Source: an uncultured Dyadobacter sp.
GTDB lineage: Bacteria; Bacteroidota; Bacteroidia; Cytophagales; Spirosomataceae
DNA: 6,250 bases
Direction of reading: 5' to 3'
NCBI GenBank assembly: GCA_946481035.1
Contig: CAMLNK010000260.1
Span: 1-6,250 of the forward strand
Shown here piece by piece: positions 1 to 6,250 of the stretch. A program made the position numbers and the translations under genes. A model generated the notes under the pieces. It searched no databases. It was not told where the DNA came from and saw only the letters and a list, made by a program, of their open reading frames with translations. Position 1 is the stretch's first letter. Each line of letters starts with the position of its first letter.

Positions 1-61
1 CTTATTCAGTCATTCACTCATTCACTCATTCAATCATTCAATCATTCACTCATTCACTCAT
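1..61. repeat. 8-bp tandem repeat array directly after the susD-like stop codon
   Basis: Read on the minus strand, seven complete octamers run from 61 down to 6 with the pattern ATGA[G/T/C]TGA. The fifth base is the only variable one, in the order G, G, T, T, G, G, C. A degenerate partial unit (ATAAG) fills 5-1. The first unit begins on the last A of the TAA stop codon of the SusD-like gene. Because the period is not a multiple of three, the array puts TGA stops in several frames. It reaches the window edge and may continue. It has no hairpin potential and is not a terminator. Short intergenic tandem repeats of this kind are prone to copy-number change by slippage; a function is not shown. 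Confidence 0.9.
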
Positions 62-1503
62 TAATAATTGCTATTCTGCTTCAAAATCCCATTACTCAAA
101 TCCACCTCGCGTTGTGGAAGTGGGAAATAGTAATGTTTAGGTTTGATAAAATTGCGGCTTGGCTTGAATGGCCCGCGGGCGATTTTATAATGAGCGGCGA
201 TGTCGATCAGGCCGGCCTTGTCCCAGCGCATCAGGTCCTGGTGGCGTTCGTTTTCTCCTGCCAGCTCTACGCGGCGCTCGTGCATGATGTCGGCCATTTT
301 TGTGCCCGTTTTAGCGGCCAGTCCGGCGCGCTTGCGCACGGCATTCAATTCGGTATCACCACTCTGGCTCGAACGGATCTTCGCTTCGGCTACGAGCAGA
401 TAAACATCCGCCGACCGCAGGAAGGGTGCATTCAGGCTCTGGCTCATGTCGCCGGCGTCGGTGAAGCTGGTGTATTTACGGAACGAGTAACCGGTTACCC
501 TGGTCATATTAGCAGCAAATGTTGTCGTTCCTGCCGAACCGCGGTTCACCTTATCACCCGGGCTATAAATGGAGTACGAGCGGCGCGGATCGCCTTTTTC
601 AAACTCCTGTACGAGGTCTTCGATCGGTTCGTGGAAACCCCAGCCGCCAAATGCCTGCGGCGTGTGGTAGAAAGTCGGCGAATTATCTGTGGTCCAGCCG
701 GTTTCGTATTGCAGAGAGAAAAGGATTTCGGGATTGTTCTCGGTCGTAAGCTGGAAGTTTTCGTCGTAATTGCCAGCCAGTTTGTAGGCAGCATTACCAA
801 TCACCTTTTGTCCAAACTCAATCGCTTTCGCCCAATTTTCCTGGTATACGTACAATTTTGCAAGAAAACCGTTCGCGGAACCCTGCGTAACCCTGCCCGC
901 ATCGCCATCGGCGTAACTTACCGGCAACAGTGCAGCTGCTTTCAGGAAATCCGACTCGGCCTGGGCGCGTACCTCGGCAAGGGTTGCTTTGGCTTTGTTA
1001 TAGTTGTTGTTCAGCGCATCGTCTTCGAGGATAATGGGTACTTCACCGTAAATCAATGAAAGGCGCCAGTAAACAAATCCACGCAGGAAATACGCCTCAC
1101 CCATGCTGCGGTTGCGCAATGCGTCGTCCATTGTCACTTTCGGAGCATTGATGAGCACGGCATTGGCACGTGAAATCACCTCGTATTTGGTCGACCACGT
1201 AGCGAGAATGTGCGAGTTGGATGCATCGAATGTAAACATTTCGAGCGAAGTCTCGTCGGAATGGTCGCCTGCGCGGTTCATATCGTCGGAGCAGTTGTCG
1301 AAAGTGTATTCGGTGTGGGCAAAGCCGTCTTCGTTCAGCAACGGGGCATAGATAGCGTTGGTAGCTGCCACCACGTCGTCGCCATTGCGCCAGAACTGCT
1401 GGGAAGTCACCTGTCCGTAAGGCGTGCTTTCGAGCAGATCGTCGTTACAGCTGGTTACGGCCATCAGGAAAAGCCATCCGGCCAATACATATATTTTTTT
1501 CAT
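61..1503 (-). CDS. SusD/RagB-family outer-membrane nutrient-binding lipoprotein
   Basis: This 480-residue protein is the surface-exposed substrate-binding partner of the SusC-like transporter encoded 40 bases upstream. It starts with a lipoprotein signal peptide (MKKIYVLAGWLFLMAVTSC) with the lipobox cysteine at residue 19, followed by N-D-D, which fits export to the outer surface in Bacteroidota. Family hallmarks are the TPR-like stretch GEAYFLRGFVYWRL (about 135-148), the helix RSADVYLLVAEAKIR (about 363-377), the C-terminal ERRVELAGENERHQDLMRW (about 409-427), and the closing FPLPQREVDLSNG motif with a terminal asparagine-rich tail. The length is typical of the family. The frame is open up to 1608, but those 35 extra codons overlap the end of the SusC gene and lack a signal sequence, so the ATG at 1503 is chosen. 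No Shine-Dalgarno sequence precedes it, as is normal in this phylum. The ligand cannot be told from sequence: glycan, peptide or other are all possible. Confidence 0.95.
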   Translation of the reverse strand: MKKIYVLAGWLFLMAVTSCNDDLLESTPYGQVTSQQFWRNGDDVVAATNAIYAPLLNEDGFAHTEYTFDNCSDDMNRAGDHSDETSLEMFTFDASNSHILATWSTKYEVISRANAVLINAPKVTMDDALRNRSMGEAYFLRGFVYWRLSLIYGEVPIILEDDALNNNYNKAKATLAEVRAQAESDFLKAAALLPVSYADGDAGRVTQGSANGFLAKLYVYQENWAKAIEFGQKVIGNAAYKLAGNYDENFQLTTENNPEILFSLQYETGWTTDNSPTFYHTPQAFGGWGFHEPIEDLVQEFEKGDPRRSYSIYSPGDKVNRGSAGTTTFAANMTRVTGYSFRKYTSFTDAGDMSQSLNAPFLRSADVYLLVAEAKIRSSQSGDTELNAVRKRAGLAAKTGTKMADIMHERRVELAGENERHQDLMRWDKAGLIDIAAHYKIARGPFKPSRNFIKPKHYYFPLPQREVDLSNGILKQNSNY

Positions 1504-1543: not shown

Positions 1544-4500
1544 TTAAAATGACAGGGTTGCGCCGATCGTCCATGTACGTGCCTGCGGGTACTGGGCATA
1601 ATCCACATTCAACTGGCTGTAAAGACCGGCAGCTTTGGAACCGGCATCGGTGCCTACGTAACCCAGCTCGGGGTTCATACCGGTGTATTTGGTGATCGTA
1701 AACACGTTCTGGCCGGTAATGTAAATCCTCGCCTGCGACAGTTTCACCTTCTCGATCACGGTTTTAGGAATGCTGTAACCCAACGTGAAGTTTTTCAGGC
1801 GGAAGAAATCACCCTTTTCGATAAACAAATCGGAAGGACGGAAGTTACGGTTCGGGTTGTCGATGCTCAGACGCGGCACGGTGTTGCTGGTACCGGCTCC
1901 GTTCCACCGCTCGCTCGCTTCCTGATACAAATTGAAAGAATAGCTTGCGTCGAGGCCCTGCATGCGATCGGCATTGAAGATCGAAACGCCGCCAACACCC
2001 ACGAAGAACAGATTAAAATCAAATCCTTTATAGTTCACGCCTGCATTCAAACCATAATTAACCTTAGGCTGAGGGCTTCCGATAATGGTCCGGTCCTTGT
2101 CGTCAACCATACCGTCGCCATTCAGGTCCATGAAACGGACGTCGCCCGGGTGGATTTGTCCGTTGGTCTTGCGCGAATCGTTGGCAATGTTGGGATCGGC
2201 ATCGATTTCCGCCTGGCTTTGGTACAAACCGTTCGTTTTGTAGCCGTAGAACGTACCATAAGGGTTGTTCTCGTACGTGCGCACGATCTCCTGCTGCCCG
2301 CGGCCGTACAGCTGCGAAGCCAAGAAGCCGCCCGGCGTGGCAAGTTGGGTAATGCGGTTTTTAATGAAAGTAGCATTACCGCTCACATTCAGGGTCAGGT
2401 CGCCGAACGAGTGGCGATAGGACGCTTCGATCTCCACCCCCTTGTTACGCAGCTGACCGATGTTCTGATCAGGGATGACAGAGGTCCCGATCGTACCGAC
2501 AGACGGCGGGGCGAGCAGCATTTTCTTGGTATCCTTGATAAAATAGTTGACCGAGACATACAATGCATTCTTCCAAAGTCCGGCTTCTACGCCAAAGTTG
2601 CTCATTTCAGCCGTTTCCCAACCGATTTGCAGGTTGGCCAAACGGCTTTGCGCCGCACCCGAGATCGGGTTTTGCGTGCCGCCCGCGCCCAATGCGTACC
2701 GGTACGACGAGTTGATCAACGCCAGGTATTGCAGCGAATTCACATTCTGGTTGCCCAACTGGCCCCAGCCGCCCGTCAGCTTGAAGTTGCTGAACACCGG
2801 CAATGCATTTTTGAAAAAATCCTCTTCGGAAAGCCGCCATCCCAGCGAGAATGCGGGGAAGTAGCCCCAACGATTGCCCGGCGCAAATTTGGACGAACCG
2901 TCGGAACGGAACGTGGCCGTGAGCAGGTAGCGATCCATGAAAGAATAGTTGGCACGACCAAACCAGGAAGCCAGCGCGTCGTAGCTGCGGTTGCCATCCT
3001 CACCCGCCACGGATACGATCGTACCGGCATATTGCAGGTAGCGCAATGTAGGATCTTCGCTCGCGAAGTCGCGGCCTCTCTGTTTGGAGGAAATGCTGTT
3101 GAACGTCTGTGAAGTATAACCACCCACCAGGTTCAGGCTGTGCGCGCCGAATTTTTTGTCGTAAGAAAGAAAATACTCCTGCAAAAACGACCAGTATTTG
3201 CCGTGTGCCAGGTCGAGCTGGTTGTAGGAATTGGTACGGAACTGATCGTTGATCTTTACCTCGAAATTGGTACTTTCTGAAAAAGTCGCATCCATAGCCA
3301 GGTTTGCACGCAGTTTCAGTCCTTTCAGCAGTTCCAGCTCGCCGGTGAGACTACCCAGAATGCGGTTACGGATATTGTTCTGATCCTGTGTGTCGACCGT
3401 AAAAATCGGGTTATTGATATCCCCGAATGCACCGATACCCTTTGTTGAACTATAAGAGCCATCGGCATTGCGGATCGGCAGGCCCGGGTGGAAGCGGATT
3501 GCGCTCCAAAGCAAGCCGGTTTGCGACGAAGTCGTATTGGGTGAAGTATTATGTGTATTTGTGAATTGCAGGTTCTGCCCTATTTTCAGCCTCGACCCGA
3601 TCTTGTGGTCCGAATTAACACGGAATGTATACCGCTTATAATAGGATTTACCGATAATACCCTTTTCATTATAATAACCTCCCGAAATCGAGAAAGACGA
3701 ATACTTGCCTCCGCCGCGGATGGCCGCGTCGTAGTTCTGGGTAACGCCCTGTTTGAGCAATGCGTCCTGCCAGTTGGTTTTTTGGGTCTGGTATTGGGTG
3801 TCCTCCCAAATCGGCGGCACGGGCAAGCCGTCGTTTTTATAAGCTTCGCGCTTCAATGCGGCCAAATCGGGCGCTTCCAGCATGTCGAGGGTTTTAATGC
3901 GGTTGCTGATACCCGCATAGCCATTCAATGTCACACTAATCGGATTGTCGAAAGTGCCGCGCTTGGTGGTAATGATCACCACACCGTTCGCTGCACGCGT
4001 ACCGTAAATCGCGGATGCCGAAGCGTCTTTCAGAATTTCGATCGATTCGATGTCGTTCGGGTTCACGTCGTTCATCGAGCCGGCCGGAACGCCATCGATT
4101 ACCACCAACGGGTCGGCATTGTTTACCGTTCCGAAACCGCGGATCTGGATCGTACCCGCGTCGCCTGGGGCACCGCCGTTACGGATCACGTTCACACCTG
4201 CCGCGCGCCCCTGCAATGCCTGCTGCGCACCTCCCGAGGGAAGATTCTGAAAATCAGAACCTTTTACCGAAGATACTGCCCCGGTCACGTCTTTTTTCTC
4301 CTGGGTACCATAACCTACCACTACCACTTCTTTCAATGCACTCACGTCCGGAGCCATCGTGATATCAATGACGGAATTATTGGCAACCACGGCATCCTGG
4401 CTCACATAACCAATAAAGGAAAACCGCAGTGTAGCACCATTATCGGGTACAACGAGCTGATACCGGCCGTTCTGGTCGGATGTGGTGCCTTGCTGGCTGC

Positions 4501-4990
4501 CTACAATGAGGATGTTCACGCCCGGCAGGCCATCGCCTTTTTCGTCGACCACCTTTCCGGTAATGGTCCGGTCGGCTATTGTCCCCGCGCTGCCGGCGCT
4601 AAAAGGCGCTGCGCTTTGCGGGTCGATCTTTTTTCGCAACAGGATCCGTGCATTTCCCACTACCTCGTAAGAAACGTTCAAAGGCGTAAGCAGCTGGTCG
4701 AGCACGCGGTTCAGTGAGCCCTGGAGTTGTTTTGCGGCAACCGTGCTCCTGCCCTGGATACTACCCGAGCTGTATACGAATTTAACGTCGGCCTGCTTTT
4801 CGATCTGGCGCAATACCTGCCGGATTTCCAGCGACTCGACTTTCAGTGAAATCTCCTTATTGAGCAACTCCTGGCTATAAACGCCGTGCGCCATGGAAAT
4901 TCCGCAGCATATCAAAGCAAGCAAAAGTTGTTTAGCGGTAGCACTCATGACTTTGTAAACAACCCTTTTGTAGGGTATTTTTTTATGCAT
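1544..4990 (-). CDS. SusC/RagA-family TonB-dependent outer-membrane transporter with N-terminal STN signalling domain
   Basis: This 1148-residue TonB-dependent transporter moves a bound nutrient across the outer membrane using energy from TonB-ExbBD. Domain order: basic N-terminus and signal peptide (about 1-40, hydrophobic core LLLALICCG); STN/secretin-TonB short N-terminal domain (about 43-120); CarboxypepD_reg-like beta-sandwich (about 143-215, ITGKVVDEKGDGLPGVNI...GRYQLVV); TonB-box-like EVVVVGYGTQ (221-230); plug (about 231-345, with LQGRAAGVNV, IQIRGFGT and LKDASASAIYGTRAANGVVI); then a 22-strand-type barrel ending in the phenylalanine at 1148. The DLNGDG motif at 955-960 is conserved in SusC proteins. 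The STN domain marks the subset regulated by FecR/ECF sigma factors, as in FecA. The ATG at 4990 is used; Met15 (4948) is an alternative that still leaves a signal peptide. The gene is intact and operonic with the SusD-like gene. The substrate is unknown. Confidence 0.96.
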   Translation of the reverse strand: MHKKIPYKRVVYKVMSATAKQLLLALICCGISMAHGVYSQELLNKEISLKVESLEIRQVLRQIEKQADVKFVYSSGSIQGRSTVAAKQLQGSLNRVLDQLLTPLNVSYEVVGNARILLRKKIDPQSAAPFSAGSAGTIADRTITGKVVDEKGDGLPGVNILIVGSQQGTTSDQNGRYQLVVPDNGATLRFSFIGYVSQDAVVANNSVIDITMAPDVSALKEVVVVGYGTQEKKDVTGAVSSVKGSDFQNLPSGGAQQALQGRAAGVNVIRNGGAPGDAGTIQIRGFGTVNNADPLVVIDGVPAGSMNDVNPNDIESIEILKDASASAIYGTRAANGVVIITTKRGTFDNPISVTLNGYAGISNRIKTLDMLEAPDLAALKREAYKNDGLPVPPIWEDTQYQTQKTNWQDALLKQGVTQNYDAAIRGGGKYSSFSISGGYYNEKGIIGKSYYKRYTFRVNSDHKIGSRLKIGQNLQFTNTHNTSPNTTSSQTGLLWSAIRFHPGLPIRNADGSYSSTKGIGAFGDINNPIFTVDTQDQNNIRNRILGSLTGELELLKGLKLRANLAMDATFSESTNFEVKINDQFRTNSYNQLDLAHGKYWSFLQEYFLSYDKKFGAHSLNLVGGYTSQTFNSISSKQRGRDFASEDPTLRYLQYAGTIVSVAGEDGNRSYDALASWFGRANYSFMDRYLLTATFRSDGSSKFAPGNRWGYFPAFSLGWRLSEEDFFKNALPVFSNFKLTGGWGQLGNQNVNSLQYLALINSSYRYALGAGGTQNPISGAAQSRLANLQIGWETAEMSNFGVEAGLWKNALYVSVNYFIKDTKKMLLAPPSVGTIGTSVIPDQNIGQLRNKGVEIEASYRHSFGDLTLNVSGNATFIKNRITQLATPGGFLASQLYGRGQQEIVRTYENNPYGTFYGYKTNGLYQSQAEIDADPNIANDSRKTNGQIHPGDVRFMDLNGDGMVDDKDRTIIGSPQPKVNYGLNAGVNYKGFDFNLFFVGVGGVSIFNADRMQGLDASYSFNLYQEASERWNGAGTSNTVPRLSIDNPNRNFRPSDLFIEKGDFFRLKNFTLGYSIPKTVIEKVKLSQARIYITGQNVFTITKYTGMNPELGYVGTDAGSKAAGLYSQLNVDYAQYPQARTWTIGATLSF

Positions 4991-5059
4991 AATTTTAAAG
5001 GTTTTTGTGAACTGAACAACTCAAAAACAAACGGTATCCTTCTGCCAGGAAGGGTATTC
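4991..5059 (-). promoter_or_regulatory. leader and probable promoter region of the susC-susD operon
   Basis: This is the space between the hairpin terminator and the susC-like ATG. The last 20 bases before the ATG are A/T-rich (CACAAAAACCTTTAAAATT) with no Shine-Dalgarno, typical for Bacteroidota. A weak match to the Bacteroidota -7 element (TAnnTTTG) is TACCGTTTG at 5036-5028, which has one base too many. A TTG at 5061-5059 lies 22 bases upstream of it, slightly too far for a -33 element. A promoter is expected here because a terminator lies just upstream, but its exact position is not settled, and an ECF sigma factor would use a different motif. Confidence 0.4.
5033..5058. promoter_or_regulatory. 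imperfect dyad upstream of susC, candidate operator or leader hairpin
   Basis: TATCCTTC (5035-5042) and GAAGGGTA (5049-5056) form an inverted repeat with 7 of 8 positions complementary around a 6-base centre. In RNA, G-U pairs extend it to ten pairs (5033-5042 with 5049-5058). It sits between the weak -33-like and -7-like elements, where a regulator could act. No run of U follows it on the minus strand, so it does not look like a terminator. The regulatory role is inference. Confidence 0.35.
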
Positions 5060-5096
5060 AAAACGGCCGGACATGTTAGCGCATGGCCGGCATTTT
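5060..5096 (-). terminator. intrinsic terminator after the fecR-like tail
   Basis: On the minus strand the segment reads AAAA, a G+C-rich arm (TGCCGGCCATG), a loop of about six bases (CGCTAA), the complementary arm (CATGTCCGGCCG), then TTTT. The stem has one bulge and one mismatch. It begins about 20 bases after the TAG at 5116-5118. The A-tract before and T-tract after could let it work in both directions. It separates the upstream regulator-type gene from the susC-susD operon, or acts as a partial terminator in read-through transcription. Confidence 0.75.
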
Positions 5097-5115
5097 ATTA
5101 AGTTAACTTCCCTTT

Positions 5116-5211
5116 CTAATTCAAACTACCGCAGCCTTCGCCGGAAATAAACAGCGAGGCACCACGGCGCTCATATTCCACATTCACCGCCTTGCAGATC
5201 AGATCCAGCTG
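5116..5211 (-). pseudogene. 3' fragment of a FecR-like anti-sigma factor (DUF4974-type C-terminus)
   Basis: About 31 codons remain, reading QLDLICKAVNVEYERRGASL and ending ISGEGCGSLN. The pattern LD-hydrophobic-C-x-x-hydrophobic-N-hydrophobic-x-Y followed by hydrophobic-ISG-x-GC is what the last two strands of the FecR DUF4974 domain look like in Cytophagales. FecR proteins sit in the inner membrane, hold an ECF sigma factor, and sense the STN domain of a partner TonB-dependent transporter with their periplasmic C-terminus. A fecR gene immediately upstream of an STN-bearing susC is the usual order, which supports the call. The fragment is very short, so identity rests on pattern and context. 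Confidence 0.65.
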
Positions 5212-5472
5212 GTCGAACATCGGCAGTTCGGGAGCGGCGACGAACAGCACCTTGGCGCCTTCGGCGGTGGTCCAGTTCTGGATGTCCAGGGTGCGGCGGG
5301 TGGGTGTCTTGCCGCCCAGTTCCGCCAGGGATTGCAGGCCCTGGGCCGGCGCCGGAGTGGCGGTTTCAGCGATGGTGGTGGTCGGGCGATTGACGATGAA
5401 GGCCAGCACGCCGAGCAAGGCGATCAGGGCCAGGCCGAGCAGGCCGTAACGCAGGCCGTTGCGCTCACTCAT
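5116..5472 (-). CDS. chimeric reading frame: N-terminus of an M16-family protein fused to the C-terminus of a FecR-like protein
   Basis: This 118-residue open frame is not a natural single protein as far as I can judge. Residues 1-87 match the start of the non-catalytic M16-family partner found after an M16 peptidase in Pseudomonas: an N-terminal membrane anchor (GLLGLALIALLGVLAFIV), a Pro/Ala-rich linker, then TRRTLDIQNWTTAEGAKVLF and ELPMFD, where the M16 fold begins. In the family this is followed by an R/L...F.AGS strand and roughly 400 more residues. Here it is instead followed by QLDLICKAVNVEYERRGASL and ISGEGC, resembling the end of FecR anti-sigma factors of Cytophagales. The two halves also differ in base composition. 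The start at 5472 is secure: it has a strong ribosome binding site and overlaps the upstream gene by 8 bases. Whether any cell makes this protein is doubtful. Confidence 0.8.
   Translation of the reverse strand: MSERNGLRYGLLGLALIALLGVLAFIVNRPTTTIAETATPAPAQGLQSLAELGGKTPTRRTLDIQNWTTAEGAKVLFVAAPELPMFDQLDLICKAVNVEYERRGASLFISGEGCGSLN
5203..5217. other. breakpoint between Pseudomonas-like and Bacteroidota-like DNA
   Basis: On the minus strand the M16 signature ends at the codons for M-F-D (5220-5212), and the FecR-like signature begins at Q-L-D-L (from 5211). G+C content, codon choice, ribosome binding site style and gene family all change here. The exact base cannot be fixed because a few bases may be shared by both sources. 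No transposase, integrase, target duplication or tRNA is visible. Confidence 0.8.
5212..5472 (-). pseudogene. 5' fragment of a second M16-family (PqqL/insulinase-like, probably non-catalytic) gene
   Basis: The first 87 codons of an M16-family protein remain: a short cytoplasmic N-terminus (MSERNGLRYG), one transmembrane or uncleaved signal segment (about 9-27), a linker of roughly 30 residues, and the first strand of the N-terminal M16 domain (TLDIQNWTTAEGAKVLFVAAPELPMFD). In pseudomonads, tandem M16 genes like this lie next to ftsY and rsmD; the second member commonly lacks the HXXEH zinc site and is about 450-500 residues long. Everything after residue 87 is missing because a different sequence is joined here. 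I infer truncation by the chimeric join rather than by natural decay, since the retained part has no stop or frameshift. Confidence 0.75.
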
Positions 5473-6250
5473 TGCGGGCCTCCTCGGGCAGGATGTGGGC
5501 GACGCTCAGGCGGTCGCGGGTAAAGAAGGTCCTGGCGGCGGCCTGGATGTCGGCAGGCGTCACGGCTTCGAGGGCCGCGAGATCCTGGTCCATCAGCTTC
5601 CAGGACAGGCCGACGGTTTCCAGTTGGCCGATGGCGGTGGCCTGGCTGGTGATCGAGTCGCGCTCGTAGACCAGCCCGGCGATGACCTGGGCGCGCACGC
5701 GGGCCAGCTCCGCGGCGGACGGCGGATTCTGCTGCAGGTCCTGCAGTTCGCGCCACAGCCCGGCTTCGGCCTGCTCCAGGGTCTTGCCGAGCTGTACGTT
5801 GGGCGTGGCGGACAGCACGAACAGGCTGTCGCCGCGGGCGAAACCGTCGTACCAGGCCGATGCGCCGGAGACCAGTTCCTCGCCGCGCTCCAGGCGGCTC
5901 GGCAGGCGGGCGCTGTAGCCGCCGTCGAGCAGGGTGGCGATCAGGCGCAGGGCATGCACCTGGCGCGGCTGCTCGGCGGTGGCCAGGCCGGGCACGTTGA
6001 AGCCCATCAGCAGGTTCGGCAGTTGGGTTTTCACGTGCAGGGTGAGGCGCCGTTCGCCCGGGGCGGCCAGTTCGCGCGGGGTCTTGGCCGGCGGTGCGGC
6101 CCCCTTGGGGATGGCGCCGAAATAGCGTTCGGCCAGCGCCTTGACCTCGCTGGCGCTGACATCGCCGACCACCACCAGGGTGGCGTTGTTCGGCACATAC
6201 CAGGCCTGGTACCAGGCGCGCAGCTCCTCGACGGTCATGCGCTCGAGGTC
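5465..6250 (-). CDS. M16-family zinc peptidase (processing-peptidase/insulinase type), C-terminal part
   Basis: The frame is open to the right edge, giving 261 residues from DLERMTVEELRAWYQAWYV onward. The ATG at 6238 is internal, because the preceding in-frame codons (D-L-E-R) belong to the conserved motif. Visible are the end of the N-terminal M16 domain (YVPNNATLVVVGDV), a linker with PRELAAPGERRLTLHVKTQLP, and the M16_C domain (LLMGFNVPGL, LRLIATLLDGGYSARLPSRL, and the closing VTPADIQAAARTFFTRDRLSVAHILPEE). The catalytic HXXEH and downstream glutamate would lie in the roughly 190 missing N-terminal residues, so activity cannot be judged. The protein is expected to be periplasmic or envelope-associated, and its substrate is unknown. 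The stop TGA (5467-5465) overlaps the next start in ATGAGTGA, implying translational coupling to the partner gene. The sequence style is Pseudomonas-like. Confidence 0.92.
   Translation of the reverse strand, partial: DLERMTVEELRAWYQAWYVPNNATLVVVGDVSASEVKALAERYFGAIPKGAAPPAKTPRELAAPGERRLTLHVKTQLPNLLMGFNVPGLATAEQPRQVHALRLIATLLDGGYSARLPSRLERGEELVSGASAWYDGFARGDSLFVLSATPNVQLGKTLEQAEAGLWRELQDLQQNPPSAAELARVRAQVIAGLVYERDSITSQATAIGQLETVGLSWKLMDQDLAALEAVTPADIQAAARTFFTRDRLSVAHILPEEARNE
5479..5485 (-). promoter_or_regulatory. strong Shine-Dalgarno sequence for the gene starting at 5472
   Basis: GAGGAGG lies six bases before the ATG at 5472, inside the end of the upstream M16 gene. This fixes the start codon. 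It also contrasts with the susC and susD starts in this window, which have none, so it helps show that the two halves come from different phyla. Confidence 0.85.

Follow-up and report, generated by a model that had tools for sequence, protein, structure and literature searches.

The contig analyzed here, the whole 6,250-nucleotide stretch of which we refer to as the window, is most probably an artefactual three-way chimera produced by read assembly from a mixed sample. Comparison of its parts with other genomes shows a three-source make-up – P. benzenivorans-type DNA, DNA of a second Pseudomonas-type species, and Dyadobacter-type DNA – with the source changing at two places, referred to as join A and join B. 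The apparent fusion gene that spans join B is very probably not a gene, and should not be annotated as one. The artefact reading is strongly favored, and the original prediction, a chimera made from a mixed sample during assembly or library preparation, agrees with four observations: the best hits of the two halves lie in different phyla, none of the matches listed carries both halves, the parental genes are whole elsewhere, and both switches occur at look-alike stretches. The features of the window are as follows.

5592–6250, minus strand: segment 1, P. benzenivorans-type DNA with the later part of the first gene (gene 1) of a two-gene M16 pair; 652/659 identical to L006
5465–6250, minus strand: partial M16 peptidase ORF (gene 1), a two-species mosaic through join A (PF05193, E 8.4e-34; identity profile)
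5592–5634, no strand: join A, 43 nt over which P. benzenivorans and G201 are identical; L006 is exact down to 5592, and G201 is exact from 5634 down
5211–5634, minus strand: segment 2, from a second Pseudomonas-type species, with the end of M16 gene 1 and the first 87 codons of gene 2; 424/424 identical to G201
5116–5472, minus strand: fusion ORF, 118 aa with an ATG start, in which the M16 gene-2 leader (codons 1–87) runs in frame into a FecR tail (codons 82–116)
5211–5230, no strand: join B, a stretch common to both sources of at most 20 nt, CGAACTGCCGATGTTCGACC (minus strand); G201 identity ends at 5211
5116–5210, minus strand: FecR C-terminal tail of Dyadobacter type, including the stop codon; 94% identical to P0015
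1–5230, minus strand: segment 3, Dyadobacter-type DNA with the end of a FecR gene, then SusC and SusD; 87.4% identical to L003 (D. soli)
1544–4990, minus strand: SusC/RagA-family TonB-dependent receptor with an STN domain (TIGR04056, 901 bits; PF07660; PF07715)
61–1503, minus strand: SusD-family lipoprotein (PF07980, 1.4e-30) in an ORF extending to 1608, with a likely start (MKKIYVLAGW) at 1503 from a reading of the sequence

Three sources in one contig

Segment 1 is most similar to P. benzenivorans DSM 8628 (L006), followed by Pseudomonas sp. UBA2684 (L001; 599/659), and the next best among 59 genomes compared is 83% identical. Against L006 the window has 7 mismatches over the 659 positions of 5592–6250, after which 99 of the following 381 positions are mismatched or gapped; for Pseudomonas sp. 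JM0905a (L028) the pattern is reversed, with 113 such positions among the first 616 and 21 among the 424 that follow. All 18 genomes of the JM0905a genus that were searched with segment 2 match it, and G201 is identical over its full 424 positions; the counterpart in G201 lies at C1:275351-275774 on a contig of 6,056,953 bases, and the M16 gene-2 frame there runs uninterrupted for 494 aa. The M16 gene-1 ORF of the window looks ordinary, although its identity profile marks it as a mosaic of two species. A Pseudomonas-type source had been predicted for the N-terminal half, and the type is correct, but the Pseudomonas-type DNA is of two species joined at 5592–5634, and this second join was missed, as was the likeness of the sources around the joins.

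The Dyadobacter-type DNA of segment 3 has its best match in D. soli L003, which is colinear with the window from 5230 to 28 (87.4% over 5207 columns), and the alignment of a further relative, L053, extends to window position 12. The SusC/SusD operon that was expected to follow the fusion ORF is present, with SusC at 1544–4990 and SusD within an ORF at 61–1608; the two (TIGR04056 and PF07980) adjoin, as expected of a SusC/SusD nutrient-uptake pair. The identity profile against 10 relatives gives no clear further switch in segment 3, at 80–90% identities where a switch between equally distant Dyadobacter species would be invisible. An Rfam scan of the window at gathering thresholds gave no matches. 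Just downstream of SusD (window 4–62), the 8-base unit ATTCACTC is repeated in tandem about 7.4 times; a simple pattern count finds three to five similar units near the same place in the Dyadobacter loci L003, L053, L045, and L050, and none or one in the other six loci examined.

The parental loci exist elsewhere in uninterrupted form, and the adjoining parts of the window have their best matches in different genomes. D. soli L003 has a whole FecR gene of 330 aa (PF04773 and PF16344) with an ECF sigma factor and SusC alongside, and M16 gene 2 is present without the join in both L006 and G201. A genome scan with a query containing both parts gave 80 loci, which included Pseudomonas-type as well as Dyadobacter-type sequences; the window aligns to Pseudomonas-type loci from 6250 to about 5208. 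Within the P. benzenivorans genus, 149/149 genomes match the junction query, and none of the matches listed for them passes query position 1043; within Dyadobacter, 19 of 48 genomes match it, and no match there begins before position 1021. The original prediction had called for a separate taxonomic comparison of the two halves, and their best hits do fall in different phyla; it had also held that best hits of both halves in one genome would remove the claim, and no match crosses the junction among those listed for the 149 and 48 genomes.

The apparent fusion gene

The minus-strand open frame at 5116–5472 stands exactly where it was described, with its ATG start and 118 aa, and the sequence reads GAGGAGG, the predicted Shine-Dalgarno-like motif, six bases 5′ of that ATG. 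The predicted change from G+C-rich to moderate-G+C DNA along the frame is also evident: G+C falls from about 0.69–0.70 (5251–5550 and 5401–5700) to 0.46 (4951–5250), and third-position G+C is 86% in codons 1–84 versus 60% in codons 89–118. The M16 signatures attributed to the first 87 codons are supported in part, in that homologues align to this region as an M16 leader, but a Pfam scan of the 118-aa ORF finds no Peptidase_M16 or M16_C domain, and only the leader is represented. The FecR-like ending is confirmed by alignment of codons 82–116 to a FecR C-terminus at 94% identity; the same scan finds no FecR domain (PF04773) in the ORF, where alignment to P0015, a protein with PF16344, identifies just the last part of the FecR_C region.

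The two parts overlap at codons 82–87, which encode ELPMFD in both the M16 and the FecR proteins. LRLTFAAG is one continuation found beyond this word in the M16 proteins; in the FecR type the sequence is NELPMFDQLDLICKAVN. Because both proteins have ELPMFD in the same phase, the frame continues across join B and has the appearance of a fusion gene. The prediction of an in-frame join in a shared phase is thus correct as to phase, but the join is a stretch of at most 20 nt (5211–5230) and not a point.

When the fusion ORF was searched against about 5.8 billion proteins, only those of about 65–206 aa being eligible, 19 of 118 candidates were hits. Twelve of these homologues cover codons 1–87 and P0017 covers codons 8–87; the alignments of P0006 and P0008 end at codon 81, and P0018 and P0019 match the first 33 and 30 codons only. 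P0015 and P0016 cover codons 82–116 at 94%. None of the 19, within that candidate length range, covers both parts, and no second copy of the junction protein was seen among the proteins searched. The M16 gene-2 leaders P0006, P0018, and P0019 have other residues after codons 81, 33, and 30, respectively, which possibly reflects frameshifts or further joins in those records. The caution in the original prediction that an open frame is weak evidence for a real gene was well placed.

P0016 is from an 814-base public contig in which the start of an FMN reductase (PF03358) runs at ELPMFDQ into a comparable FecR tail; its relative P0020 continues DQEARDG instead of the FecR tail. This is apparently a second false fusion, and the ELPMFDQ word may mislead assemblers repeatedly. 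The FMN-reductase parent was not found among 40 genomes of the P. benzenivorans genus and plasmids, in a search run without a known-match control; the one relative recovered for the reductase side is the protein P0020.

Origin of the joins

Join A coincides with an exact 43-nt word present in both L006 and G201; of the 33 same-strand words of at least 20 nt that the two loci share exactly, it is the longest. The stretch at join B is at most 20 nt long because the flanking bases differ from the window on both sides: the base after it is T in 23/23 Pseudomonas-side loci and A in the window, and the base before it is A in 10/10 Dyadobacter-side loci and C in the window. The 23 loci leave out L051 (Burkholderiales), which is absent among the best 60 of 62 DNA hits, and the 10 are those with a DNA alignment into the FecR tail, the others aligning only from about SusC onward. 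The sources are certainly similar locally at join B, as G201 and the 10 Dyadobacter loci agree at 16–19 of the 20 bases there versus 3–7 of 20 on either side; the same 10 loci match the window at 16–19 of the 20. The true Dyadobacter parent is absent from the genomes searched, and these comparisons are with its relatives. The nearest, L003, shares an exact 15-nt word with G201 and agrees with it at 19 of 20 bases overall, with one mismatch, and is identical to the window at 75 of 80 positions just beyond the join. Between G201 and the Dyadobacter half of the window the longest common word is 20 nt, partly by construction, and the next is 15 nt and lies elsewhere. The exact word in the Dyadobacter parent may have the full 20 nt, 15 nt, or fewer.

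Words of about 15–20 nt shared between two such genomes are common. A count over 400 kb of P. benzenivorans and 400 kb of D. soli, on both strands (3.2e11 position pairs), gives 1088 matching pairs of 15-mers and 3 of 20-mers, and the latter scales to roughly 930 shared 20-mer pairs for the whole genomes, a rough figure based on the 3 seen. By arithmetic, a join made blindly would fall within an exact shared word of at least 15 nt about once in 2e7, and of at least 20 nt about once in 5e9. We conclude that the joins were guided by similarity.

In the reading that we prefer, an assembler working on a k-mer graph, presumably with k near 20, joined reads of three parents that presumably lived in one sample. 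A P. benzenivorans-type contig would have run through the 43-nt word that is identical in the second Pseudomonas-type species, and the 424-nt stretch of that species would then have passed, via a word of at most 20 nt, into the Dyadobacter FecR gene.

The main rival is an in vitro chimera, in which templates switched at look-alike stretches during library PCR or whole-genome amplification and the product was then assembled; we regard this as unlikely. A template switch can take place at short similar stretches despite a mismatch, or with a word of 15 nt, and needs no exact 20-nt word at join B, where the Dyadobacter relatives differ from G201 at 1–4 of 20 bases. It would, however, take two switches among three templates in the space of about 420 nt, and the position of join A in the longest identical word of its locus pair fits a k-mer graph at least equally well. 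The case for the assembler as agent is somewhat weakened, and that for template switching somewhat strengthened, because position 5212 of the window is not matched in 8 of the 10 Dyadobacter relatives and the longest exact words that the 10 share with G201 at join B are 8–17 nt, against a ceiling of 20 nt for the stretch; if the Dyadobacter parent also differs at 5212, a k of 20 would require an exact word far longer than the one available. On balance we infer that the k-mer graph of the assembler, rather than a template switch, was the joining agent.

That the join was made by real recombination in a living cell, placing Pseudomonas-type DNA beside Dyadobacter FecR, SusC, and SusD and creating a fusion gene, is very improbable. 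We give similarly little credence to its explicit form, in which a Dyadobacter-type chromosome took up Pseudomonas-type DNA already recombined between two species, by illegitimate recombination at short similar stretches, and expressed an M16-leader/FecR-tail fusion upstream of SusC/SusD. The frame is open and the upstream Shine-Dalgarno motif would permit translation, but the DNA of two Pseudomonas-type species would have to lie in a Dyadobacter-type chromosome, or the reverse, and segment 2 is unchanged from G201 over its 424 nt. Mobile-element genes are present in none of the 4 ORFs scanned, the junction protein has no second copy among the proteins searched, and the third-position G+C is Pseudomonas-like right up to the join. 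We rejected a real gene fusion on three grounds: no second copy was seen, the parental genes are whole elsewhere, and there is a second join. Blunt or adaptor ligation of unrelated fragments in library making, which would likewise yield cross-phylum joins, is the least credible explanation and was rejected because of the likeness of the sources at the joins: join A lies in an identical word of 43 nt, and join B in a stretch where a blind join would seldom fall, given the rarity calculated above for exact words of at least 15 nt.

Comparison with known loci and assembly artefacts

A cross-phylum fusion that is open, led by a Shine-Dalgarno motif, and seemingly translatable can thus come from a single coincidental hexapeptide word, and through such contigs databases gain false fusion proteins and false gene neighborhoods. 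A true join would be a striking event between phyla, but the evidence instead favors an ordinary artefact, which gives no ground for inferring gene transfer.

The paired M16 genes of Pseudomonas (L006 5269–6774 and 6743–8248) have the same gene order and overlap as the window, and the gene-2 leader MSERNGLRYGLLGLAL is common to both, but gene 2 of the window departs from M16 after 87 codons, whereas the G201 frame continues to 494 aa. The ECF sigma–FecR–SusC–SusD locus of Dyadobacter (D. soli L003, from 1666 on) is colinear with the FecR tail, SusC, and SusD of the window at 87.4% DNA identity, but the window has Pseudomonas-type DNA in place of the sigma factor and of roughly the first 295 FecR residues.

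The chimera also resembles the ‘chimeric nodes’ described in PMC8171044 for de Bruijn metagenome assembly, where they occur at common sequence and are wrongly resolved. In that account, sequence shared by two genomes becomes a node that has two entries and two exits, and if these are paired wrongly the parts of the resulting contig match different species. The cases described there concern evolutionarily similar species, whereas the window has a cross-phylum join within a word no longer than 20 nt and draws on three genomes.
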